Virus record (IMG/VR): IMGVR_UViG_3300035698_006258
Span: 1 to 28,258 of that record
From: a virus
Direction: 5' to 3' (one strand)
Length of the DNA stretch: 28,258 nt
Each line of letters starts with the position of its first letter. The first letter of the stretch is position 1. The notes beneath the pieces are model-generated. The model made no database searches, was not told the origin of the DNA, and worked only from the letters and a program-made list of their open reading frames with translations. Positions 1-26,025 of this stretch are shown piece after piece. The position numbers were made by a program, and so were the translations under genes.

Positions 1-3000
1 TCAAGTAGTTCAGAAGGTTTAAGTTCCTCTAGTAGTTCGTCTAGTTCTACATCTAGTTCATCTTCGTCTAGTTCCTCAAGTAGTTCAGAAGGTTTGAGTT
101 CCTCAAGTAGTTCGGAAGGTTTGAGTTCATCAAGCAGTTCGAGTTCATCGAGTAATTCAAGTAGTTCAAGTAGTTCAAGTAGTTCAAGTAGTTCAAGTAG
201 TTCAAGTAGTTCTTTTAGTTCAAGTAGTTCGAGTATTGACAGTAGCTCATCAAGTTCGTCTAGTAGTATGGCTATTGTTTCTTCTTCGAGTTCAAGTAGC
301 AGTTCAAGTTCGAGTTCTGAGAAATATTCAAGTTCTTCAAGTTCAAGCAGCTCTTCAAGTTCAGAGAAGTATAGTAGCAGTAGTTCAAGCTCTTCTACTT
401 CTTCTTCAAGTTCTTCATCATCCTCATTTGACAACAGGGCAAACTTTGAGATTACAACTACTGGTGCTGACCAAATAGGTATCAGTTATGAGGATGCTGT
501 CAATCTTAGAATCAATTGGGGTGATGGAAACGAGGATATTGTAAGTGGGGCGGGCGAAGCCCTTCATACTTATGCTGGTGCAGGAACTTGGGATTTAAAT
601 ATAAGCGGAGAATGTTCTGTATTTAGATTTAAAACTAACCCCGGCAAGCTTACAGAAATCCTATCACCTATTCAGGGTATTAATGGGCTTACTAGCTTTT
701 ATGAAACATTTAGAGATTGTGTAGGTTTAACTTCAATACCTGACGGACTGTTTGATGAAGTAACTGACGTAACAACTTTCCAAGGATGTTTTCACGTTAG
801 TAATATTACAGCAATCCCCGACAATCTATTTGATTACAATGTTAATGTAATTAGCTTTAAAGAATGCTTCCATACGGCTGTAGTAATAAAATCCATACCT
901 TCAGGCTTGTTTGATAACTGCCCACTTGTAGAAGATTTTGGCTTTTGCTTCCAACAGTGTGTTAATTTAGAATCTATTCCTGCCAATTTATTTGATTTGA
1001 ATACAGCCGCTCTAGATTTTAGATATCTTTTTTATGGTTGCACCGATCCTTTATTAACAACTGTCCCTGCAAATTTGTTCGCTAATAATATTTTAGTAAA
1101 TGATTTTCAAAGATGCTTTTATGGTTGCACAAAGTTAACAACTGTAGGTTCTGGACTGTTTGATAACTGTAGTGACGTAACTACTTTCAGGGACTCATTT
1201 GCCGCTTGCACATCATTAACGGCAATTCCATCAGGCTTGTTTGACGATTGCACATCTGCCGAAGTGTTTTTAAACACTTTCAGTGGTTGCACATCATTAA
1301 CAGCAATACCAAGTGGTTTGTTTGATAATAATGTTAATGTAACTCTTTTTATGAATTGTTTTAAAAATTGCGGAGTTAATTTAGTCGGTCCGTCTAGAGA
1401 ATTATGGATTAGTCATTCAGGCGCTAGTGGAACCGATTGTTATCTTAATGATGTTAACTTGACAGACTATGATAATATTCCTGAAAGTTGGGGTGGTCCA
1501 TTAGTAAGTTCTAGTTCTTCTTCAAGTTCTATAGATAGTAGTAGCTCTTCAAGTTCCTCTAGTAGTTCTGAAAAATATAGTTCAAGCTCAAGTAGTTCAA
1601 GTTCTTCTACATCAAGCTCATCTTCAAGTTCATTAGAGCAGAACAGATATATAAGATATTGTGCAGATGGTTCTCAACACGGACTTCCCTCTAATTCTAT
1701 TGTTTATACTTTAGTGGAAGGGAATATTAAGTATCACTGTTGGACAAGAATGTTTGATGTATCTTCTTCTTCAAGTGAATCTGTTGGAAATACATCTTCA
1801 AGTGAATCTTCTGCATCTAGCTTAAGTTCTGAAAGTAGCAGTTCACAGAGTTCTGATAGTTCTTCTAGTTACATACAATTATGGAGTTCATCTTCTAGTT
1901 CTTCTTCTAGTTTAAGCAGTCCTTCGAGTAGTTCACAGAGTTCTTCTAGTTCTTCTTCTTCAAGTTCAAATTCTTCAAGTTCACAGAGTTCTTCTAGTAA
2001 TTCTTCAAGTTCTAGTTCTTCGAGCAGTTCTTCGAGCAGTTCTGAAGAATACAGTTCTTCTAGTTCTTCCAGTTCTTCTGTTGATAGTTCTTCTTCGAGT
2101 AGTAGTTCACAGTCAAGTCAATCGTCCTCAAGTAGTTCTTCTAGTTCTCTTGAGCATAGTTCTTCAAGTTCTTCAGGTGACAATATTTGCGTAGACGGTA
2201 ACATTACGCCTACTGAAGCAAAAGATACTTATAAGCCATACGGAACACATAATAGCAAAACCAGTTATATACAGGAGAATCCAACAGGACTTTACACTTA
2301 CTATATTTGGTATCAGGACAATGAGGTTTCATGGCCGGTAAATTCTAGAAACAGATGGATTATGTCAAGAGCGGTCGGTTCTAGTATATTGTATCACTGG
2401 TATTCTTTAGCCGATTCCGCAACCGTTTACTTTGGCGAATACTATAATTATGGATGGACAACAGGCACAGCATTTGTTCAAGAAGAGTGTTTCATGTCGA
2501 GTTCTTCAAGCTCTATAGATAGTAGTAGTTCTTCTAGTTCAACTTCTAATAGCTCTTCTTCGAGTAGTAGTTCCGAATTACACAGTTCTTCTTCAAGCAG
2601 TAATTCAAGTTCTTCTCAGTCAAATTCGAGTAGTTCTAATTCAAGTTCTTCTGAAGGAAATAGTTCTTCTTCGAGTAGTAATTCTTCTTCGAGTTATAGT
2701 TCTTCGAGTAGTTCTGAGGGAAACAGCAGTAGTTCTTCTTCTAGTTCTAGTTCATCTAGCTCTGAAGATTATAGTTCAAGCAGTTCTTCGAGTTCTGAAT
2801 TACACAGTTCTTCTAGTTCTACATCGCAAAGTTCATTAAGTTCTGAATCTGTTGGAAATGTAAGTTCTTCAAGCAGTTCTTCGAGTAGTTCTTATTCAAG
2901 TTCTTCTAGTTCAAGTCTATTTGAGATAGATTATGATGCGGTTTGCACAGCTGATTGCCCACCTTCTCCTAACGATGTTCAAGGCGAATATGTAAGAATA

Positions 3001-3990
3001 GGTGAAGCGTATGGTTATTCTCTATATTCTGGTCCTGATGGCAACGATACATATAGGTTGTTCAGAGTTGCAAATGACCAAGCGATTGTAGATACGGCTG
3101 GATTTATTAGTGGCGCTCCTACATACAGATGGTTGAAAACTAATGATAATGATTTTGAAGGTGACTATCTTCCTGACTTAGGTGTAACGGGAACAATTAC
3201 AATAGGACCATGGTTACAGAAATCAAGCTCTAGTTCTTCTTCGAGCAGTTCCAGTAGTTCTTCTTCTGTAGATAGTTCAAGTAGTTCTTCGAGTAGTAGT
3301 TCAAGTTCATTCGCCAATAGTTCTTCAAGTTCTTCTGGTGACAATCTTTACCTTTGCGGTGATGGACTTACACCTTCTGCAACAGTTGGAACATATGCTG
3401 ATGATGGATTACATTCATTAATGCCATCTTATAAACACATATCTGAAACATATTACCTTTGGTTCTTAGATTCAGGTATTGGCAATGGTTTCTGGATGTG
3501 TTCTGCTCAAAAGGGTGTTTACGCACCCGGCTATTTTAATCGTCCTCATGGAACAAAGATAGGCTCTAGTCCAATAGGTGATGACTGGACAGCAAATAAC
3601 GGTTGGGTTGGGTATCCTTCGGTTGAAGATTCTCCTTGTAACCATAGTTCTAGTTCTTCTAGTTCTAGTTCATTAGATTCATCTTCAAGCAGTAACTCTA
3701 GCTCTTCTCAGTCAAGTTCGAGTAGCTCTTCAAGTTCAGAATTATATAGCAGTTCTTCAAGCAGTTCTTCTAGTTCATCTTCAAGCAGTTCTTCTAGTTC
3801 ATCTTCTAGCAGTTCTGAAGAATACAGTTCGAGTAGCTCTTCGAGTTCTTCATCAAGCTCATCTGAAGAATACAGTTCGAGTAGCTCTTCAAGCTCTTCC
3901 TCAAGCAGTTCAGATTTAGGTGCAAAGGTTATTGAAGAAGATGGAACACCAATATTAACAGAAGCGGGAGCGTATTTAACAGTAGAATAA
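1..3990 (+). CDS. Giant modular poly-serine tail/fibre protein (5' partial)
   Basis: The frame is open from base 1 and no credible start is visible, so the N-terminus lies outside the window; 1329 residues remain. Long poly-Ser tracts, punctuated by short recurring motifs (EKY, ELH, EGN, EEY, IDS), separate folded blocks. Block 1 (bases about 427-1503) starts with a PKD-like stretch (INWGDGNEDI) and continues as BspA-type leucine-rich repeats of the form F-x-x-C-x-x-L-x-x-IP-x-GLFD. Block 2 (about 1630-1764) is short and Cys-containing. Blocks 3-5 (about 2176-2493, 2917-3222, 3337-3645) are roughly 100-residue Trp/Tyr-rich domains; blocks 3 and 5 share YY[IL]W[YF] followed by W-x-[MC]. The C-terminus reads KVIEEDGTPILTEAGAYLTVE-like, a short Glu/Leu module. 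The gene next to it is a beta-helix fibre. I infer a surface or receptor-interaction structural protein; the exact position in the virion is unknown. Confidence 0.8.
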   Translation, partial: SSSSEGLSSSSSSSSSTSSSSSSSSSSSSEGLSSSSSSEGLSSSSSSSSSSNSSSSSSSSSSSSSSSSSSSFSSSSSSIDSSSSSSSSSMAIVSSSSSSSSSSSSSEKYSSSSSSSSSSSSEKYSSSSSSSSTSSSSSSSSSFDNRANFEITTTGADQIGISYEDAVNLRINWGDGNEDIVSGAGEALHTYAGAGTWDLNISGECSVFRFKTNPGKLTEILSPIQGINGLTSFYETFRDCVGLTSIPDGLFDEVTDVTTFQGCFHVSNITAIPDNLFDYNVNVISFKECFHTAVVIKSIPSGLFDNCPLVEDFGFCFQQCVNLESIPANLFDLNTAALDFRYLFYGCTDPLLTTVPANLFANNILVNDFQRCFYGCTKLTTVGSGLFDNCSDVTTFRDSFAACTSLTAIPSGLFDDCTSAEVFLNTFSGCTSLTAIPSGLFDNNVNVTLFMNCFKNCGVNLVGPSRELWISHSGASGTDCYLNDVNLTDYDNIPESWGGPLVSSSSSSSSIDSSSSSSSSSSSEKYSSSSSSSSSSTSSSSSSSLEQNRYIRYCADGSQHGLPSNSIVYTLVEGNIKYHCWTRMFDVSSSSSESVGNTSSSESSASSLSSESSSSQSSDSSSSYIQLWSSSSSSSSSLSSPSSSSQSSSSSSSSSSNSSSSQSSSSNSSSSSSSSSSSSSSEEYSSSSSSSSSVDSSSSSSSSQSSQSSSSSSSSSLEHSSSSSSGDNICVDGNITPTEAKDTYKPYGTHNSKTSYIQENPTGLYTYYIWYQDNEVSWPVNSRNRWIMSRAVGSSILYHWYSLADSATVYFGEYYNYGWTTGTAFVQEECFMSSSSSSIDSSSSSSSTSNSSSSSSSSELHSSSSSSNSSSSQSNSSSSNSSSSEGNSSSSSSNSSSSYSSSSSSEGNSSSSSSSSSSSSSEDYSSSSSSSSELHSSSSSTSQSSLSSESVGNVSSSSSSSSSSYSSSSSSSLFEIDYDAVCTADCPPSPNDVQGEYVRIGEAYGYSLYSGPDGNDTYRLFRVANDQAIVDTAGFISGAPTYRWLKTNDNDFEGDYLPDLGVTGTITIGPWLQKSSSSSSSSSSSSSSSVDSSSSSSSSSSSSFANSSSSSSGDNLYLCGDGLTPSATVGTYADDGLHSLMPSYKHISETYYLWFLDSGIGNGFWMCSAQKGVYAPGYFNRPHGTKIGSSPIGDDWTANNGWVGYPSVEDSPCNHSSSSSSSSSLDSSSSSNSSSSQSSSSSSSSSELYSSSSSSSSSSSSSSSSSSSSSSSEEYSSSSSSSSSSSSSEEYSSSSSSSSSSSSSDLGAKVIEEDGTPILTEAGAYLTVE
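163..212 (+). repeat. 9-bp tandem repeat in poly-Ser coding sequence
   Basis: Five perfect head-to-tail copies of AGTTCAAGT (163-207) plus a partial sixth lie inside the poly-serine frame, each encoding Ser-Ser-Ser. The unit length is a multiple of three, so copy-number change would lengthen or shorten the linker without a frameshift. The rest of the poly-Ser sequence uses mixed AGY and TCN codons and is less regular. Confidence 0.85.
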
Positions 3991-4012: not shown

Positions 4013-5515
4013 ATGAGTAAAATATCAGATATCACGAGGGCAAGCAATGTCGCAAGCTCTGATTTAATGCTGATAACTGGTAACGTCGCTTCAACGGCAA
4101 CCAGTTACGCAGTAGAATGGAAAGATAGTAATGACTATTATCAGCAAACAGTTAGTGTTGCTGTAGATGGTGGACAATATTCATCTGTGCAGGATGCTAT
4201 TGATTCCATATCAGACGCTTCTAATAGCAAGAAGTATGTTGTTGAAGTTTATCCTGGTAATTACACTGAAAATGTTGTGATGAAATCTTATATTTCATTA
4301 AGAGGTATGGGTGGTATACGTGGTTTGGCGAATATTACTGCATCTTCTGGTGATGTTATTACTATACCTACGGATGGACCTTGCGGTTTGAAAGATATGA
4401 AACTATCTGCAACTGGAACAGCCTGTGCTATAGCCTTAACAACTGGTTCAACACAAACGTATCAGTTAGATGGTTGCGGAATTACATATGTTCAAGCATC
4501 TGGTTACACAGATTTAATACATATTGAATCTGGAACGTTTATTATAAATAACTGTGTAATAACTTATACATCTACTGGAGCTACTGCTGGGGCAAATTAC
4601 CATAGGGTTCTATACGTTGATGGAACAGCATCGTATAATATGAGTGCAACAATCATAACAGCTAGTATTGCCGATACGAATGATATCCTTGACATAGTAG
4701 AAGAAGCTTCTGCATCTGGAAGCGAATCGCTTATTATTGGATGTGCATTTGAAGCAACTGGTGAGGCTGATGTAAGAGGGTTTGATGTAGAAACTGCGGG
4801 AACACAAAGAGCTTTCCAAGCAAACCATTTCCACCTTTTGGGCAATTCCGCTGGCGTAGGAACAATGTATAAAATGAATAATGTTGCTTCTGAAATCCAC
4901 TCAACTGGTAATAGAATTTTAGTTGAAGATTTTACAAGTAATTACTACTCTGATACTGGAGCTTTAGCTGAACTCGTTTCTCATATGGATGATATTGTAG
5001 CCGAAGATGGTGAAACAGGTGATGGAGATGTTACATTAGCTTCATCTACTTTTGATGGACATATCTCAATGACGAACTACGCTATTCAAGTTGAGGATAC
5101 TGCTGGTGGGGTTGACTGTAATACAAATCTTGGACTTGCTATAGTTTGGAATGCAGAAACAATTAAGGACTCAATGTATACGCACTCTAATGCAACTAAT
5201 GCTTCAAGGATTCAAGTTGATAGAGGGGGACTATACAGAGTTACTTATAACGTCACATGGACAGCGGGAGCAAACAATACTGACGTATCTTGTTACATGT
5301 GGGTTAATGGTGATACAGAAAAAACACCTTCGAGGGCTGACCAAGGACAATCAAGGTCTGGAACTCAAGGCTCTAACAAGGCTACATATGTTGTTGAGCT
5401 TGCCGATACAGATTACTTTGAAATATTTGCAGAAAGAGGTGGTAACACTACAACGACAGCTAACTCTACTGCAAATAGAAGTTGGGTTCTAGTGGAGCTT
5501 ATCAGAGGCATCTAA
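4013..5515 (+). CDS. Beta-helix tail fibre/spike-like protein with C1q/TNF-like C-terminus
   Basis: 500 residues, started at an ATG with AAGAGGT about 8 bases upstream. After a short N-terminal segment, residues about 40-300 resemble right-handed parallel beta-helix proteins of the pectinesterase/pectate-lyase type: VAVDGGQYSSVQDAID, then EVYPGNYTENV and repeated short strands with Gly turns. Residues about 360-500 look like a C1q/TNF-like jelly roll (GLAIVWNAETI, GLYRVTYNVTW, NGDTEKTP, ending WVLVELI), a fold often used as a trimeric C-terminal head in phage fibres. It follows the poly-serine protein by 22 bases in the same operon. A tail spike or receptor-binding role is inferred. No glycosidase active site can be assigned from the sequence, so enzymatic activity is open. 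Confidence 0.7.
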   Translation: MSKISDITRASNVASSDLMLITGNVASTATSYAVEWKDSNDYYQQTVSVAVDGGQYSSVQDAIDSISDASNSKKYVVEVYPGNYTENVVMKSYISLRGMGGIRGLANITASSGDVITIPTDGPCGLKDMKLSATGTACAIALTTGSTQTYQLDGCGITYVQASGYTDLIHIESGTFIINNCVITYTSTGATAGANYHRVLYVDGTASYNMSATIITASIADTNDILDIVEEASASGSESLIIGCAFEATGEADVRGFDVETAGTQRAFQANHFHLLGNSAGVGTMYKMNNVASEIHSTGNRILVEDFTSNYYSDTGALAELVSHMDDIVAEDGETGDGDVTLASSTFDGHISMTNYAIQVEDTAGGVDCNTNLGLAIVWNAETIKDSMYTHSNATNASRIQVDRGGLYRVTYNVTWTAGANNTDVSCYMWVNGDTEKTPSRADQGQSRSGTQGSNKATYVVELADTDYFEIFAERGGNTTTTANSTANRSWVLVELIRGI

Positions 5516-8769: not shown

Positions 8770-9042
8770 ATGAGCGTTGAAGTAACAAAAATAGTAAAGC
8801 ATTATGGCGACGATAATGAACTACACAGAAAAGGAGGGAGCGCTTTACAAGAGTATGTGAATGATATCTTGTCTAAAGAGGAGTGGTATACACACGGAAG
8901 GCTCTGTAAACGAAAAATTTACAATGGCGAAGGAAAGCTACGGCATATGTCGATACACTTTAAAGAACGTAGGAACGATACGGGACTTGATGCCCAAGGA
9001 TACATGGTTTACACATACTACAAATCAAAGTCTTTCAAATAA
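8770..9042 (+). CDS. MORN-like repeat protein, divergent
   Basis: 90 residues from the third in-frame ATG, chosen because AGGAGA lies 7 bases upstream; an ATG at 8695 would add 25 residues without a ribosome site. Two degenerate copies of the cluster motif are visible, DNELHRKGGSALQ and EWYTHGRL, with the rest basic and aromatic (GYMVYTYYKSKSFK). Compared with its two downstream relatives the HR-x-DGPA core is worn (HRKGGSA). Function unknown; membership of the cluster is inferred from the motif and adjacency. Confidence 0.55.
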   Translation: MSVEVTKIVKHYGDDNELHRKGGSALQEYVNDILSKEEWYTHGRLCKRKIYNGEGKLRHMSIHFKERRNDTGLDAQGYMVYTYYKSKSFK

Positions 9043-9052
9043 GGAGAATCTA

Positions 9053-9265
9053 ATGGATACCAACGCAAACAAAAAATGGTTCAAAGATGGATTACGACAC
9101 AGAGATGGTGGATACCCTGCATGCATATATGGTAACGGCGATAAATATTGGTATGTAGATGGACTGTTACATAGAGAAGATGGTCCAGCTATTGAACTTG
9201 ATAACGGTTATAAAGAATGGCGTTTGAATGGCGTTCTTCAAAAGGCAACAAAGGGAGATGAGTAA
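9053..9265 (+). CDS. MORN-like W-x-x-DG-x-x-HR-x-DGPA repeat protein
   Basis: 70 residues, ATG with AAGGAGA about 6 bases upstream, 10 bases after the previous stop. Three repeat units are visible: KKWFKDGLRHRDGGYPA, KYWYVDGLLHREDGPAIE and KEWRLNGVLQ. The pattern resembles MORN-2-type repeats seen in many small phage and bacterial proteins, usually forming beta-hairpins. No catalytic residues are evident, so a binding or scaffold role is more likely than enzymatic. Larger annotated spans of this frame that start at 8861 would run through the previous gene and are not supported. Confidence 0.65.
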   Translation: MDTNANKKWFKDGLRHRDGGYPACIYGNGDKYWYVDGLLHREDGPAIELDNGYKEWRLNGVLQKATKGDE

Positions 9266-9266
9266 G

Positions 9267-9410
9267 ATGAGCGATACAGGAACATCACTAATAACTACAT
9301 GGTTGTTTTGGATTAGTATGTTATTGATATGGAATAGTTACATACTAGAAAAGAAACTTGATAAGATTATAGAAAACACTACACCAACCCAAATAACACA
9401 GGAGAAGTAG
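9267..9410 (+). CDS. Small single-pass membrane protein
   Basis: 47 residues. The ATG at 9267 is chosen because AAGGGAG lies about 9 bases upstream; the ATG at 9258 is too close to that site. Residues about 8-24 form a transmembrane helix (ITTWLFWISMLLIWNSYIL), followed by a short charged amphipathic tail (EKKLDKIIEN). The start is directly behind the preceding stop, so it is co-translated with the MORN-like gene. Not recognised; small membrane proteins in early phage regions can be superinfection-exclusion or lysis-control factors, but nothing here decides that. Confidence 0.6.
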   Translation: MSDTGTSLITTWLFWISMLLIWNSYILEKKLDKIIENTTPTQITQEK

Positions 9411-9411
9411 A

Positions 9412-9501
9412 ATGTATATTAGCGAACAGGCTGTGGGTTTTATTATGCACAGGTTAAACAGATGTTCGATTACTACACTGTGTCAGAAGCGTTGGGGCTA
9501 G
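9412..9501 (+). CDS. Putative 29-residue peptide
   Basis: An ATG with GGAGAAG about 5 bases upstream opens a frame that begins MYISEQAVGFIMHRLN and ends in a tag stop ten bases before the next gene start. The peptide is short and partly basic. It has a proper ribosome site and fits between genes without overlap, which is why it is listed; it could also be a leader that couples translation to the next gene. No family recognised. Confidence 0.35.
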   Translation: MYISEQAVGFIMHRLNRCSITTLCQKRWG

Positions 9502-9511
9502 AGGAGGATGT

Positions 9512-10144
9512 ATGTTAAGCGTGTTAGAATATATTAAGGGTAGATTTAGGTATTGGTTTAAGATGAATGGGTGTAGGATATTATCTAACGGAACTAGAAA
9601 ATGGTATTTTAACGGCAACGCACACAGAGAAGATGGACCGGCTAAAGAATTTATAGATGGCGCAAAAGAATGGTATATAAATGGACAATTACATAGATTA
9701 GATGGCCCGGCCAGAATACAATCGTCCGGCGTCATAGAATGGTGGATAAGTGACAGATCATTTGAATCACAAGAAGGACACAGACAAGAGATGCAACGTA
9801 GGCGACGAACTGATTCACCAAACTTCGATACAAGTAATCTATGGACGAGTGAAGTAGACCATAGTGAACTAACGGGTTTAGACTTTAGAGATAGTGATCC
9901 CAGATATTTATCCAATCCACGCCAGCCTAATAGAAGCCGAAATGACGAATATGGTGATACAATACAAACAAGAGAATTCACATTTGCGTGTAATCATTGC
10001 GGTAGAGCTACAGTAGTTACAGTTCCTAATATCCCACCACCTAATTGCAAAGTATCAGACGGGCATATAGAAGAGATGAAAGAATTAAACAAAGAGTTAC
10101 CACCATATAACGCTGACAATAGTATAGCTGAGCTAGAGTTGTAA
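9512..10144 (+). CDS. MORN-like repeat protein with C-terminal zinc-binding motif
   Basis: 210 residues with GAGGAGG just upstream of the ATG. Residues about 28-85 hold three repeats of the cluster motif: RKWYFNGNAHREDGPAKE, KEWYINGQLHRLDGPARI and IEWWISD. The middle (about 90-150) is Ser/Asp/Arg-rich and likely disordered. Near residues 160-185 a Cys cluster, CNHCGRATVVTVPNIPPPNC, could bind one zinc. The final residues NSIAELEL resemble the C-terminus NSIDELEL of the unrelated small protein at 13755-14009. The zinc knuckle may allow nucleic-acid or protein binding. Function unknown. Confidence 0.65.
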   Translation: MLSVLEYIKGRFRYWFKMNGCRILSNGTRKWYFNGNAHREDGPAKEFIDGAKEWYINGQLHRLDGPARIQSSGVIEWWISDRSFESQEGHRQEMQRRRRTDSPNFDTSNLWTSEVDHSELTGLDFRDSDPRYLSNPRQPNRSRNDEYGDTIQTREFTFACNHCGRATVVTVPNIPPPNCKVSDGHIEEMKELNKELPPYNADNSIAELEL

Positions 10145-14423: not shown

Positions 14424-14975
14424 TTAAAGTACTTCGAAGAGGGTAAAATCATTGTCGCCTTCTGATACTTCTGCCTTGGCGTTATCAGCGGTTGTGTCAT
14501 CTAGCCATCCTTCTTCATTGATTCCTTTTACCCATGGCTCAATGTTTTTAGCTGATGCTTTATTGGGGAATTTGAATTCATAGTCTAATGAACCATTTTT
14601 GTATTTTTTTAGAGATGTCCATACAATTTGATTGAATACTGTTTTGATTATGTCTCCTGTTATTTCCACTCCAGAATCTTTGACAATCTTGAGCAATCTA
14701 AGGCGACATTCTCTGATATTGTCTTGCATGATGTCAGTGCCGTAGATGGTTTGGAGTGCTTTTATGGGGGCGTGACCTAGAGAGATTTTCCGTTTGAGAA
14801 CTTCAATGAGCATATTCCCATTACCGCAAGCAGGGTCAAGGAACGTCTTACCCTCTTCAAATGCCTCTGGACCGTATTGTGAGAGCTTGTCGAGCATTTC
14901 ATTGACAAGGGAGGCGGGGGTAAAGTCTTCGGCTGTGGTCTTTTTTCTCTTTAGGCGTTTGTCGTTATTGCACAT
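14424..14975 (-). CDS. DNA adenine methyltransferase, SAM-binding (motif I) subunit
   Basis: 183 residues from ATG 14975 (GGTGAT upstream); a GTG at 14984 would add three. The Eco57I/N6-adenine MTase motif I is clear, TFLDPACGNGNMLIEVL, with an upstream helix (EDFTPASLVNEMLDKL) and the following acidic-loop stretch TIYGTDIMQDNIRECRLRLL that holds the ribose of S-adenosylmethionine in the family. There is no NPPY catalytic motif in this protein; the C-terminal part (LDYEFKFPNKASAKNIEPWV) is family-typical then becomes acidic. The catalytic motif is on the gene transcribed just before it, with about 10 bases of overlap. The two proteins should combine into one active enzyme that methylates adenine, protecting phage DNA from restriction. 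Confidence 0.8.
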   Translation of the reverse strand: MCNNDKRLKRKKTTAEDFTPASLVNEMLDKLSQYGPEAFEEGKTFLDPACGNGNMLIEVLKRKISLGHAPIKALQTIYGTDIMQDNIRECRLRLLKIVKDSGVEITGDIIKTVFNQIVWTSLKKYKNGSLDYEFKFPNKASAKNIEPWVKGINEEGWLDDTTADNAKAEVSEGDNDFTLFEVL

Positions 14976-16176
14976 GGCTATCACCGGTTATCGCTTCAAT
15001 ATAATCAATTTCTTTATTTGTTAGTTTAAAATATTGATAAAGTTTTTTATCGTTCCAATTTTTAGATATATCAATTTTAGGTATGTGTTTTATTACCTGA
15101 GTATTAAGAACACCATGATGAGTACGTTGTTGAGCAATTAAAAACTGAATAGGTTTTGATTTGATATAAGATAATATTTTCAATGCTTCCATTTTATTTT
15201 TTACAAGATAAAAAACGCCTCTGTTTGCAGGAGCACTGGTAGGAGCATAAATAGGATAATTTTGAGTAGTTTGATTAGGAAAGATTAATTTTGGTTTTAA
15301 TTGATATGCATGAGGTTTATCCGACCATTTCTCTGTTCCCATTGAATATCTAACGCTATAAATTTGATGTTTTGTTTTGACGTTAGATATATTTCCAATA
15401 GTACCGCTCGAGGACAAGTAACTAAACATTTCTCTGTCAAGCATTTTTCGTAATATATTCATTGTTGTCAAGTTAAAATCTTTAGGGATAAAAGTAATAT
15501 CACTTAACTTTGTTTCAAATTTATCGCTAGTAGTAACAATAGAGCATTTCTTGTGTTGATTTTGTTTGTCAAGTAAATAATAAGAAAAAGATGAGCCAAT
15601 ATTGGGAAAATACTTTGAGCATTCATCAATATTAACGTCTCTTGCATATTTTTTAATCAAATTAAAAACCTTACTAGAATTATTTTCTTTTGTAACTTGA
15701 TTCCCCCATGTTTTTGGTGTAATCATAATAACATAACGAGCAGAAATGCTAAACGATTTATGAACAAAATCAGCCCAAAGATTAGTAAAAGAACTATCAT
15801 CGTTTGCTTTCTGATAAGGTGGATTTCCAATGACTACATCGAATTTCATTTCCATATCCTCTTTCAAAAACGTTCCCATTTCTTTGAGAACAACATTAAC
15901 ATCATTATACCGATCAGTCAAACAAAATTTCACCTTTTCTTTGCAGTCAGTAACAAACCATATCTTCTTCAATTCAATACCGAAATCATAACATAGTATC
16001 TCAGCAAATTCAAGGTTAAAGATGCAGTAGAAAAAGCAAGAAAAAGTAGAAAGGCTAAAGAAATTGCAGAAAAGGAAAGAAAAGAAAATCAAAATGTTCA
16101 AAGTAATGTTCAAAGTGCGGAACCTGATAAATAGACAATAGAGGACAATAGAGGACAATAGGTAAAAATATAACAT
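14965..16176 (-). CDS. DNA adenine methyltransferase, catalytic NPPY and target-recognition subunit
   Basis: 403 residues if started at 16176 (AGGAGG two bases before). The catalytic motif IV is MKFDVVIGNPPYQ; a helix with RYVIMITPKTWG follows, and the C-terminal 200 residues resemble an Eco57I-type target-recognition region. Residues about 57-110 (FNLEFAEILCYDFGIELKKI, IWFVTDCKEK) look like genuine protein. The first 56 residues are hydrophobic and low-complexity and are antisense to a Lys/Glu-rich plus-strand reading, so they are probably not native. Other starts are 15879, 15855 or 15849 (AGAGG 8 bases upstream of the last). Transcribed before the motif I gene, giving order IV-TRD-I, a permuted arrangement. 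The role is host-restriction evasion, inferred. Confidence 0.75.
   Translation of the reverse strand: MLYFYLLSSIVLYCLFIRFRTLNITLNILIFFSFLFCNFFSLSTFSCFFYCIFNLEFAEILCYDFGIELKKIWFVTDCKEKVKFCLTDRYNDVNVVLKEMGTFLKEDMEMKFDVVIGNPPYQKANDDSSFTNLWADFVHKSFSISARYVIMITPKTWGNQVTKENNSSKVFNLIKKYARDVNIDECSKYFPNIGSSFSYYLLDKQNQHKKCSIVTTSDKFETKLSDITFIPKDFNLTTMNILRKMLDREMFSYLSSSGTIGNISNVKTKHQIYSVRYSMGTEKWSDKPHAYQLKPKLIFPNQTTQNYPIYAPTSAPANRGVFYLVKNKMEALKILSYIKSKPIQFLIAQQRTHHGVLNTQVIKHIPKIDISKNWNDKKLYQYFKLTNKEIDYIEAITGDSHVQ
15997..16134 (+). pseudogene. Orphan C-terminal fragment of a plus-strand gene
   Basis: Plus-strand reading gives KFKVKDAVEKARKSRKAKE, continuing Lys/Glu-rich and ending NVQSNVQSAEPDK before a stop at 16132. 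It has no in-frame ATG, GTG or TTG start and is closed upstream by a stop at 15994. The composition is that of a normal phage helical C-terminus, whereas the antisense reading is an implausible hydrophobic run. I read it as the 3' remnant of a gene whose 5' part was displaced when the methyltransferase genes arrived, or as a rearrangement junction at about 16000-16030. Confidence 0.5.
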
Positions 16177-16417: not shown

Positions 16418-16476
16418 ATTGAAGAGTATATAGCGCCTTGTAATTGCCACATATGAATGATTGATTATGATTGAAA

Positions 16477-16524
16477 ACGAACAGATACGAACATCAAACG
16501 AACATAAACGAACATAAACGAACA
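16477..16524 (+). repeat. Five phased ACGAACA iterons
   Basis: ACGAACA begins at 16477, 16487, 16498, 16508 and 16518, that is every 10-11 bases, one helical turn. All copies face the same way and lie on the same side of the helix, the geometry of initiator-binding iterons. The sequence following is AT-rich. The initiator is unknown; the winged-helix proteins at 7745-8490 are candidates. Confidence 0.75.
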
Positions 16525-16876
16525 TTGGCAAGTAGAGTGGTAAAGCAAGAATAAGCGAAAACATTAAGGAATATGAGTTTTATAATGGAATATAGTGGAT
16601 GTATAGCACCCTCACACATTCACTATATCGCCCATATTTACACCAATCTGCGCCCACTCCTTCGCCCACTAATAGCCCCATAAACATTACACTATATGTA
16701 TTAATGAGTGGCTCTTCCTTCATTCGCTTCGCTCATTACGTTATCGCTTAGTGTTCCTTAACTGCGCCCCTCTTCTATGCCCCATTAAAGTGTTCATATG
16801 ATGTAACTTACTGCCCATTTAACTGCCCTGCTTCTATGCCCTATTAAGATGCCCTATTACTATGCCCGATTAAGAG

Positions 16877-16903
16877 GTAACATAAGTAACATAAGTAGCA
16901 TAG
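16877..16903 (+). repeat. 9-bp tandem repeat GTAACATAA
   Basis: Two perfect copies (16877-16885, 16886-16894) and one variant GTAGCATAG (16895-16903) in tandem. One of several short arrays in the gene-free region. Confidence 0.65.
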
Positions 16904-17010
16904 AGGGCGATACTTACAATAGTCAACGTTAATAGGGGTAAATCAGGAGTGGCTAAGAGGGGGCAATCAATGGGGCATACAAGGGGGGACTATGCAATTT
17001 CAACCATCGC

Positions 17011-17070
17011 TCATAAGTAATCAATATCAATCATAAGTAATCATAAGTAATCATAAGTAATCAATAGTAA
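17011..17070 (+). repeat. 10-bp tandem array TCATAAGTAA
   Basis: Six consecutive 10-base units: four perfect TCATAAGTAA (17011, 17031, 17041, 17051) and two variants, TCAATATCAA (17021) and TCAATAGTAA (17061). Period equals one helical turn. It is AT-rich and so could ease duplex opening. Confidence 0.8.
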
Positions 17071-17156
17071 TCATTCAGAGTATTCGTTAAATATATAACA
17101 GATGTAGAGGGGTCGATACATTTATAAGTCGTGAATATAGAGTAAGCCCGTCTACC

Positions 17157-17258
17157 TGCCCTATGAATTGCCCTATGAATTGCCCTATTGATTGCCATTG
17201 AGTTGCCCTTGAGTTGCCATTGAGTTGCCCTTGAGTTGCCATTGAGTTGCCATTGAGT
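17157..17258 (+). repeat. Nine-unit TGCC array of 12- and 11-bp repeats
   Basis: Three 12-base units (TGCCCTATGAAT twice, TGCCCTATTGAT once) grade into six 11-base units alternating TGCCATTGAGT and TGCCCTTGAGT. Units lie head to tail without spacers, so it is not a CRISPR array. An antisense open frame over this array is a product of the repeat. Confidence 0.85.
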
Positions 17259-23172: not shown

Positions 23173-24423
23173 ATGAAGTTTATTAAGTTAATTAAGAAAT
23201 ATATGGACGAAGATGACGCTGTTTATGAAGTCGGCTCCGTTCTTGAAGTTAGTGATGATGTTGCAGATGAGCTTATTAAAGGTGAAAGAGCCGAAGCGCA
23301 TTCTGGTATCGTTACTGAAGTAAAGGCTGAAGATGTAGTTGGTGCAGTTCAAAAGGCAGTAGCAGAAGCAATGGAAACTAAAGCAGTTGAAACAAAGGCT
23401 GTTGAAGTTGAAGTTATTGAAGATGCTCCTCTTTGGAAGGATAGTTCTGAGTTTATTGATGCCGTTATGAAAGCTGGTACGGGACAATCTCCTGATGAAA
23501 GGCTTTATAAATCCACAGGTCAGAACGAAACGACTGACGCTGATGGTGGCTTCCTTGTCGAACACAGAATTGGTAATGAAATCTATGCGGCTGCTGCTCA
23601 AGCCTCTATTCTGTTGCCTAAATGCGACGTAATGGAGATTGGTCCTAACGCTAACGGAATGAAGATAAATCAGTCTAACGAATCCGAAAGAAGTGCAACA
23701 ACTTTGTTCGGAGGAGTAAGAGTGTATAGTCCTGCCGAGGGGGTGGCGAAAACAGTTTTTAAGAAAGCCTTCGCCCAGGTAGACATCAGTTTGGGTAAAA
23801 CTTTCGCAGTTTTTGCCGCTACTGATGAACTGTTGTCTGATAGAGTTGGCTTGCTTTCTCGTATGAAAAGTGAAGTTGGAGCTGCGCTGGCATGGATTGC
23901 AGATGACGATATTCTACACGGAACAACTAATACCGACATGATTGAGATTGAAGGTCATGCCGCTACGGTGGCTGTTGCAGTTGCTGGGGCAAATCCTACA
24001 GCCGCAGAGCTGACCAATATGTATACGGCTATGCTTCCTGGCTCATTGCCTAGAGCTGAGTGGTATATGTCCTTAAGTCAGTATGCCGCTTGTATGCAGT
24101 TGGAAGATGCATCTGGTAGAAAATTGATTCAGCCTTCGTTCGAGCTTGCTGCCTACGGCACTTTGTTCAACAAGAAAATCAATATTCTTGAACAGTGCGA
24201 TGTTGATGCTCAACCTACGAGCATATGCTTTCTTGACTTGAGCCAGTATCTTGTCATTAAGCGTGGCGGAATTTCTGAAGCCTCGTCTATCCATGTTAAG
24301 TTTTTGGAAGATGAGCAACTTTTCAGATTCGGAACACGCACAGGCGGGTCGCCTAAGTTGGCTTCTACCATTACATTGCCTGATACAAGCATTGTAAGTC
24401 CGTTTGTTACAAGAGCTGTATAA
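23173..24423 (+). CDS. Major capsid protein-like, first of two (HK97 fold)
   Basis: 416 residues, ATG with TGAGGA 7 bases upstream. Residues 1-110 form a helical, acidic leader (EVGSVLEVSDDVADELIKGE, then AVQKAVAEAMETKAVETKAV) resembling an N-terminal delta/scaffold segment. The HK97 core follows: STGQNETTDADGGFLVEH, ANGMKINQS, FKKAFAQVDISLGKTFAVFA, ALAWIADDDILHG, then LDLSQYLVIKRGG and LEDEQLFRFGTRTGG near the end. It shares STGQNE, SQY[LV] and the [LV]EDE region with the next gene, so the two are paralogues. It lacks the poly-serine extension found there. It could be the main shell subunit or a partner with a distinct lattice position. Confidence 0.85.
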   Translation: MKFIKLIKKYMDEDDAVYEVGSVLEVSDDVADELIKGERAEAHSGIVTEVKAEDVVGAVQKAVAEAMETKAVETKAVEVEVIEDAPLWKDSSEFIDAVMKAGTGQSPDERLYKSTGQNETTDADGGFLVEHRIGNEIYAAAAQASILLPKCDVMEIGPNANGMKINQSNESERSATTLFGGVRVYSPAEGVAKTVFKKAFAQVDISLGKTFAVFAATDELLSDRVGLLSRMKSEVGAALAWIADDDILHGTTNTDMIEIEGHAATVAVAVAGANPTAAELTNMYTAMLPGSLPRAEWYMSLSQYAACMQLEDASGRKLIQPSFELAAYGTLFNKKINILEQCDVDAQPTSICFLDLSQYLVIKRGGISEASSIHVKFLEDEQLFRFGTRTGGSPKLASTITLPDTSIVSPFVTRAV

Positions 24424-24436
24424 ATAGTTAGATTTG

Positions 24437-24468
24437 AGGGATGGTCGGAGATAAAACCGACCATCCCT
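24437..24468 (+). terminator. Strong hairpin between the two capsid genes
   Basis: A 12-base perfect stem, AGGGATGGTCGG and CCGACCATCCCT, with an 8-base loop, 14 bases after the first capsid gene. Only three T residues (two beyond the paired one) follow, so it may be a partial terminator or an mRNA-stabilising hairpin that sets the ratio of the two capsid proteins. Confidence 0.6.
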
Positions 24469-24512
24469 TTCATCGCTTGCCCACTACTGGGTTAAACGAA
24501 GGAGATGAGAAG

Positions 24513-25970
24513 ATGAAGAAAGATAAGAGAATAGAGCTTGGCAAGGCGCTTCAAAAAATTGTCAAATCCACAGGACAGAACGAGGCAGTAGCCCTAGAAG
24601 GCGGAAACCTTGTCAATCATAATATCATACCTGAAATTCTTTCACCTAACTTTATGGCTGGAACGCTATATGAAAGGTGTAAGATTTTTAACGTCGGTGA
24701 TAATACCTCTGGGATTAAATTGCCTATCGCTGATGAAGCAACCCGTAATACTTCTGGTATCAAGGGTGGAGTTCTTGCATATGTCGTAGGCGAAGGCGAT
24801 GCTAAAACCCCTTCTGATGCTAAATTCAGTATTCTTGATTTAGGTTTTAATAAGATAGCTGTTGTTATTCCTTTAACTGATGAGATTAAGCAGGATTCAG
24901 AATTGCTTGTTCAGTATGTAAGTGATGCGGCTAAAGAAGCTATTCAATGGATGGTTGACAGAAACATTATTTATGGTAATGCTCTTAATGGAATTGTTGC
25001 AAGTGCCGCTACTGGTGATTCTGCAATCTCCTCACCTATAACTGCCGCTGAATTGAAAGATATCTATGATATGTATTATGGTGGTAAAGAGGGTGTATGG
25101 GTAATGGGACAGGATTTATGGGTTGAAGTTGGTGATCTATGGAATTCTATTGCAACTCAGGCTCCTGGCATTCCACTTACATTTGAGGGTGGAGATGCAT
25201 ACCTTTGGGGACATAAGGTAATAGTTTCTGATGTAGTTACTGATAGGCAAATCATGATTGGCGATTTTAGTCAATATGTGATTGTTCAGAAAGAGATTAC
25301 AGAAGCTATTAATGAATCGCTTAAGTTTGTTGAGGACGAAAGTTATCTTAGATTTGTTCTTCGAATTAATGGTGATGTCACTTGGGTTTCAGGTTTAACT
25401 ACTACGGATGGTTCAAAGGTTTATCCTTTTGTTGTTAATACTGCGGCTGAAGGTAGTTCTTCTAGTTCTAGTTCGTCTAGTTCTGTTGATTCTAGTTCTT
25501 CTAGTTCTCAATCAAATAGTTCGAATAGTTCTTCAAGCCAGTCAACGTCATCTAGTTCATCTAGTTCTGTTGATTCTAGTTCTTCTGAAAGTTCTGAAGA
25601 TACTGCAAGCACCACTAGTTCTTCTAGTTCATTGGAAGGATGTTGCGCTACTTATGCAGGAACAGCCTTTACTACGACTGCCTTGAATGGTGATTGGGCT
25701 TATGATGGCGACTATCCTCCAGTTCCTCCGGCAGCTACTGGATATCCAAGTTATGTTAATCAGACTGGGACTTACTACTTATGGTATGAGTCTGTTACGG
25801 GCTATTGGGCTATGAGTGCCGATAAGGGTGATCCTCAAGTATCTTGGGTGTCTACTACGGATACGCAAGTTTCATGTCCTGATGGGGATGTATGGGTTAA
25901 CGAGTCTGGAATCATTACTTGCACTGAAATGAGTTCAAGTTCGAGTTCTGAATCGACTGTCGGTCAATAA
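24513..25970 (+). CDS. Major capsid protein-like, second of two, with poly-Ser tether and display domain
   Basis: 485 residues. Start 24513 has AAGGAG 8 bases upstream; an in-frame ATG at 24441 lies within the hairpin. Residues 1-310 are an HK97-fold core: STGQNEAVALEGGNLVNH, SGIKLPIADE, DLGFNKIAVVIPLTDE, AIQWMVDRNIIYGNA, YLWGHKVIVSDVV, GDFSQYVIVQKE and FVEDESYLRFVLR. Residues about 315-375 are poly-Ser with VD, QS and SES interruptions. Residues about 376-470 form a domain beginning GCCATYAG with YYLWYESVTGYWAMSADKG, of the type repeated in the poly-Ser tail protein. A final short Ser tract ends it. The tethered domain should project from the capsid surface, perhaps for adhesion. Confidence 0.85.
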   Translation: MKKDKRIELGKALQKIVKSTGQNEAVALEGGNLVNHNIIPEILSPNFMAGTLYERCKIFNVGDNTSGIKLPIADEATRNTSGIKGGVLAYVVGEGDAKTPSDAKFSILDLGFNKIAVVIPLTDEIKQDSELLVQYVSDAAKEAIQWMVDRNIIYGNALNGIVASAATGDSAISSPITAAELKDIYDMYYGGKEGVWVMGQDLWVEVGDLWNSIATQAPGIPLTFEGGDAYLWGHKVIVSDVVTDRQIMIGDFSQYVIVQKEITEAINESLKFVEDESYLRFVLRINGDVTWVSGLTTTDGSKVYPFVVNTAAEGSSSSSSSSSSVDSSSSSSQSNSSNSSSSQSTSSSSSSSVDSSSSESSEDTASTTSSSSSLEGCCATYAGTAFTTTALNGDWAYDGDYPPVPPAATGYPSYVNQTGTYYLWYESVTGYWAMSADKGDPQVSWVSTTDTQVSCPDGDVWVNESGIITCTEMSSSSSSESTVGQ

Positions 25971-25979
25971 GAATTAAAG

Positions 25980-26011
25980 TGAGTGGGTTGGGTTTAATCC
26001 TGACCCACTCA
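25980..26011 (+). terminator. Hairpin after the second capsid gene
   Basis: TGAGTGGGT pairs with ACCCACTCA, extended inward by two G-U and two G-C pairs to a 6-base loop. It begins 10 bases after the capsid stop and ends 15 bases before the next start. No U-tract follows, so it may stabilise the upstream mRNA rather than stop transcription fully. Confidence 0.5.
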
Positions 26012-26025
26012 TAAATGGAGGCTAT

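Follow-up and report, generated by a model that had tools for sequence, protein, structure and literature searches.

A poly-serine-tethered domain at the end of a second phage capsid protein and its copies on other virion proteins

The head module and its second capsid protein

The DNA analysed here over its whole length (the window) is a linear, probably incomplete virus record of 28,258 bases. Its head module at 17.7-28.3 kb encodes a terminase (PF03237), a portal protein (PF04860), a protease-like protein, the two capsid paralogues MCP1 and MCP2, an adaptor-like protein, a head completion protein and an HK97-gp10-like protein (for coordinates of the features discussed, see Table 1). The position of MCP2, after the portal and the head protease and before the head-tail connectors, fits that of an HK97-type major capsid protein. 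Elsewhere the window encodes two small proteins with MORN-like repeats (HREDGPA, WYxNGxxHR) at 8861-10144 and, on the minus strand, an adenine-methyltransferase-like gene (14424-16176) that is split over two overlapping frames, with NPPY in one and DPACGNG in the other. The stretch from 16475 to 17258 is gene-poor and contains several tandem-repeat arrays of 10-13 bases (AAACGAACAT, TCATAAGTAA, TGCCCTTGAGT); it is possibly an origin or a regulatory region.

Table 1. Features of the window, with their positions, strand and the evidence for them.
Feature	Position	Strand	Evidence
Large virion protein rich in Ser, probably tail-associated; 5' end cut off	1..3990	+	Translation
PKD-like start and BspA-type leucine-rich repeats	445..1485	+	PHROG 9915, E=3e-53; LRR_5 weak
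Display-domain copy 1	2176..2490	+	hhalign against copies from other phages 44.7; BLASTP against copy 3, E=4e-6
Display-domain copy 2, divergent, missed by the sequence-only reading	2932..3213	+	hhalign 28.4 against copies from other phages, 23.2 against combined profile
Display-domain copy 3	3337..3642	+	BLASTP against capsid domain, E=2e-6; hhalign E=1e-7 against capsid-type profile
MCP1, capsid paralogue; N-terminal region of about 110 residues before KSTGQNE motif; no C-terminal extension	23173..24423	+	PF05065, E=2e-28
Strong hairpin in the MCP1-MCP2 spacer, resembling a terminator in several relatives	24436..24469	+	-36.3 kcal/mol for the folded spacer
MCP2, the second capsid paralogue, extended at its C-terminus	24513..25970	+	PF05065, E=3e-23; PHROG major head protein; nine relatives in IMG/VR and more distant ones
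HK97-type capsid core, residues 30-290	24600..25382	+	Pfam match
Poly-serine tether of MCP2	25455..25631	+	Sequence; found in 11/11 MCP2 proteins (linker of 44-146 aa with 52-76% Ser)
C-terminal display domain, modelled by AlphaFold2 as all-beta	25641..25931	+	A5 alignment; in 8/11 MCP2 proteins
Short Ser-rich C-terminal tail SSSSSSESTVGQ	25932..25967	+	Translation; similar tails in L007, L049, L053
Hairpin between MCP2 and head-tail adaptor gene	25979..26012	+	-24.2 kcal/mol

MCP2 has 485 residues counted from the start at 24513, which is preceded by the Shine-Dalgarno sequence GGAGATG; similar ones are found in relatives. The PF05065 core (83 bits against a curated Pfam cut-off of 24.2) is followed by a Ser tract of about 60 residues, a domain of about 97 residues and a short Ser-rich end; in a wider definition of 69 residues the linker is 62% Ser. 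An earlier, sequence-only reading of this DNA had described a second HK97-like capsid protein that ends in about 60 nearly pure serines and then a domain. Translation and the PF05065 match bear this description out, and its coordinates are correct to a few bases. The translation contains no frameshift and the extension is in frame, which rules out a programmed frameshift as its source. The serine codons of the tract (TCT 44%, AGT 33%, TCA 14%) are mixed and close to those of the other genes in the window (TCT 41%, AGT 26%, TCA 17%), so that the tract does not resemble a DNA microsatellite artefact, and this origin was rejected.

MCP1 and MCP2 are 31% identical and have the motif KSTGQNE in common. 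MCP2 begins shortly before this motif and thus lacks the long N-terminal region of MCP1, and MCP1 ends where the capsid core ends. The two genes are retained in tandem in every complete locus, as a pair of the T4 gp23/gp24 type, and in the phylogenetic tree one branch with 100/100 support parts the MCP1 group from the MCP2 group, which indicates that both paralogues were kept through the radiation of the phage group.

Hairpins flank the MCP2 gene on both sides. The one between MCP1 and MCP2 is kept in position and differs in sequence in all ten phages compared, and in several relatives a U-run follows it; the one 3' of MCP2 has its stem in nine of the ten, again with kept position and changing sequence. 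The two hairpins may set the ratio of MCP1 to MCP2 to connector. If they are partial terminators, less MCP2 than MCP1 would be made, which would fit a minority or vertex subunit such as T4 gp24. MCP2 may be such a subunit, and its copies may number about 55-60, as for a vertex subunit, or more, so that the head need not bear the hundreds of arms expected in the sequence-only reading. The stricter proposal, that MCP2 takes the vertex (penton) positions as gp24 does in T4 and that the head bears only about 55-60 arms clustered at the vertices, is one we take seriously but do not quite favor. For it speak the tandem paralogues with the single branch between them, the presence in nearly all phages of hairpins before and after MCP2 that would step expression down along the operon, and the precedent of gp23/gp24 in T4 (PMC3012670). 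Against it, the strong Shine-Dalgarno sequence of MCP2 argues against a low output, and the hairpins could be processing sites instead of terminators. The proposal concerns copy number and is compatible with the adhesive function discussed below.

Recurrence of the tether and the domain in related phages

Queried with MCP2, the domain and MCP1, IMG/VR yielded ten further MCP2 genes, 11 with that of the window, all relatives being uncultured contigs. Every one of the 11 proteins ends with a Ser-rich tract, and in eight of them the display domain follows, so that the Ser-rich stretch parts two folded domains as polyserine linkers do. In the MCP2 of L008, L011 and L012 the tract (44-59 residues) forms the terminus alone, without the domain. 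Tract and domain are absent from all 14 complete MCP1 paralogues, and the Ser tract is absent from the distant single-capsid relatives L059-L071.

Since three of the 11 proteins carry only the tract, the tract may matter on its own. The function could then lie in the serines, as a hydrated brush or as sites of O-glycosylation that mask the heads or prevent them from aggregating, and the domain would be an optional cap; T4 Hoc, which affects the clustering and dispersal of virions (PMC10385173), would be a parallel. We consider this unlikely, because in eight of the 11 MCP2 proteins the tract is tipped by a folded, well-conserved domain, which is joined to tethers on other proteins as well (see below). 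Also, an unsystematic inspection of the window showed no obvious glycosyltransferase.

Between the window and L007 the domain is 89% identical and the core 65%, and synonymous change amounts to 31% in the domain versus 51% in the core (p=0.004, for one of 28 pairs and uncorrected). This is only suggestive of a recent exchange of the domain between the two. GIY-YIG-like endonuclease genes adjoin the capsid genes in L012 (7190-7921) and L014 (6542-7108); homing endonuclease genes often sit beside capsid genes.

Two scans of 84,980 bacterial and archaeal species genomes with the MCP2 core revealed no relative, and consequently no host or prophage was found. Among 50,697 phage records MCP2 and the domains had no relative and MCP1 had one weak match.

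Copies of the domain on other virion proteins

The large protein at the start of the window consists to about half of Ser-rich stretches. Its PKD-like and leucine-rich repeat region resembles stretches in proteins of Klebsiella, Escherichia and Synechococcus phages, some of which are annotated as tail protein, and downstream of its gene lie an uncharacterised gene (4013-5515) and a putative holin-like gene. From this position and from the likeness of its leucine-rich repeats to annotated tail proteins it is probably a tail protein; the comparable proteins of phages G005 and G011 lie near head-neck genes instead.

The coat protein of phage G010 is of the P22 type (PF11651). In G010 and the related G012 the same domain and tether are found on a separate protein, whose N-terminal part has no assigned family and whose gene lies between those of the portal and the scaffold/coat. 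The module has therefore crossed between head lineages, a transfer that rests on these phages, at least one of them with a P22-type coat, and not on the comparison of the window with L007. In G005 and G011 head-completion proteins have long Ser tracts that end in the display domain, and G010 and G011 contain further copies in large Ser-rich proteins, together with leucine-rich repeat arrays and other segments; one tethered segment in G005 matches PHROG 10356, a virion structural protein. The domain thus occurs on head and tail proteins alike, the tail identity of the large proteins being deduced in part. In neck-region proteins of L036 (5411-7453, 7910-8860) and of L031/L032 (G011) the Ser tracts reach several hundred residues, and some of them end in the domain.

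This distribution bears on whether the extension of MCP2 serves assembly, as a spacer or scaffold in the prohead or in the control of incorporation, and is then removed by the prohead protease. The missing N-terminal region of MCP2, which MCP1 possesses, and the upstream gene for a head maturation protease (a weak PHROG match) would suit such a role. We regard it as improbable, since the domain also sits on proteins of the tail and the neck and, where the coat is of another type, on a separate protein, and in such places a function inside the shell is hard to imagine.

The copies of the domain are only 24-35% identical in pairs. BLASTP aligned the capsid domain with 3331-3648 of the large protein (31% over 89 aa, E=2e-6) and with 2176-2502 over just seven residues; the latter two blocks matched each other with E=4e-6. 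A single tail block used as query found no relative. Profiles were made, with the Ser tracts excluded, from two shallow alignments of eight sequences each that have no sequence in common: A5 contains the copies from capsid and separate head proteins, A7 those from large Ser-rich and neck proteins. The hhalign score of A5 against A7 was 69.1 (E=5.5e-13), the best of 100 column shuffles 18.6. Scored against the copies from other phages, copy 1 of the large protein reached 44.7 and copy 2 28.4, the best of 60 shuffles with the combined profile being 20.4 and 15.8, respectively; copy 3 reached 29.9, its shuffles with the combined profile at most 16.6. The score of copy 2 above its shuffles indicates that the large protein has a third, divergent copy, which gave no match with the capsid-type profile alone.

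AlphaFold2 predicted from A5 a small all-beta structure of eight strands (pLDDT 84, pTM 0.77) and from A7, for copy 3, a structure (pLDDT 82, pTM 0.75) that was confident in the best of five models only. Compared by strand order, the two models agree in the succession of all eight strands, and both have a short turn behind the first. Both comparisons that the sequence-only reading had proposed, of profiles and of predicted folds, thus came out in its favor: judged by sequence, the homology of the capsid domain with the blocks of the large protein is confirmed, and BLASTP, hhalign scores against shuffles and strand order agree that the capsid protein and the large Ser-rich protein have a display module and a type of tether in common. 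Convergence of aromatic-rich beta domains joined to a common low-complexity linker, which the low pairwise identities and the seven-residue BLASTP match of 2176-2490 might suggest, is already disfavoured and, given the profile score and the identical predicted strand order, hardly credible.

The domain had no match to a binding fold in Pfam or PHROG, among them no Ig match in Pfam, and none to a described family of carbohydrate-binding modules. Sequence searches of the PDB with both profiles gave nothing significant. Foldseek found no significant match in PDB and BFVD and hence no Ig-like fold; the best viral match, a Tetraselmis virus protein (E=0.14), is not trusted.

Proposed function and relation to known display systems

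We propose that the arms of MCP2 are outward-directed, flexible and multivalent adhesins whose domain is a cassette moving among genes and phage lineages, and give this proposal a probability of about 0.6. MCP2 would co-assemble with MCP1 as a structural paralogue, and its extension, presumably present in the virion, would project from the outside of the shell as a poly-Ser tether, long, uncharged and presumably disordered, that in most of these phages ends in the small all-beta domain. In encapsulins, which have the HK97 fold, the C-terminus is exposed outside (PMC8229669), and by analogy the extension of MCP2 most likely points outward. Owing to the flexible tether several domains could reach ligands at once, in a low-affinity, multivalent adhesion that would keep the head close to particles or to the surface or extracellular polymers of the host, and the related tethered domains on the tail would act nearer the receptor. 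Copies of the cassette would pass among the genes for capsid, neck and tail and from one phage lineage to another.

The domain on the tether probably has a binding partner on cells, polymers or particles, and this is in line with two groups of known proteins. Polyserine linkers separate the functional domains of secreted carbohydrate-degrading enzymes, many of which have carbohydrate-binding modules (PMC2386152), and Ig-like arms on phage heads, Hoc among them, have a part in adhesion or in the dispersal of virions (PMC7602432, PMC10385173). Mucus, which the sequence-only reading had named among possible targets, finds no backing in the habitat: six related records come from one assembly, 3300035698, of an Antarctic lake (PMC8542988), a source that lends mucus no specific support.

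Four known systems are related in part. The polyserine-linker enzymes of Saccharophagus degradans and Cellvibrio japonicus likewise have long Ser-rich spacers between folded modules; here, however, the proteins are structural proteins of phages, and no known carbohydrate-binding module resembles the domain that they display. T4 gp23/gp24 are also two HK97-fold paralogues kept together in one phage, but MCP2 carries a tethered domain and is without the long N-terminal region. As in gene 10A/10B of T7 and K1F, a minority or second capsid form has a C-terminal extension on the head, but 10B arises by programmed frameshift, whereas MCP2 is a separate gene with the extension in frame.

The fourth are the Ig-like display domains, which reportedly, in the account of Fraser and colleagues of 2007, are found on phage heads and tails and include T4 Hoc, the BIG2 insertion in the phi29 coat, T5 pb10 and N4 gp17. 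The MCP2 domain resembles them as a small, presumably exposed beta domain on head, decoration and tail proteins, in its transfer from gene to gene and in its proposed adhesive or dispersing role; it differs in having no Ig match by Pfam or Foldseek, in its poly-Ser tether of 44-146 residues and in that only one of a pair of capsid paralogues bears it.

The sequence-only reading knew of no description of such an architecture. Head and tail are already known to share a display module in the case of Ig-like domains (PMC7602432), and Ig-like adhesins displayed on capsids are under active study (PMC13370021), so that this part is not new. What stands as new, as far as these tools show, is a domain family without family or fold match, the poly-Ser tether, its fixed site on one of two capsid paralogues and the movement to phages with other coats; a literature search on serine linkers in phage virion proteins found nothing relevant. 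A broader view, to which we give slightly less than an even chance, is that of a mobile poly-Ser-tethered display platform on every part of the virion: a dedicated capsid paralogue that in one group of phages always ends in the Ser tether, and a previously undescribed family of beta domains whose members change places between proteins of the capsid, the neck and the tail and separate head proteins, in phages with unrelated coat families.

The finding adds a non-Ig display module of head and tail with a tether of its own, mainly from environmental and not from gut data, and broadens the idea of adhesive arms on phage heads. It supplies a naturally occurring case of a capsid paralogue given over to display, and a small domain family without known fold match whose ligand is directly testable with purified protein.
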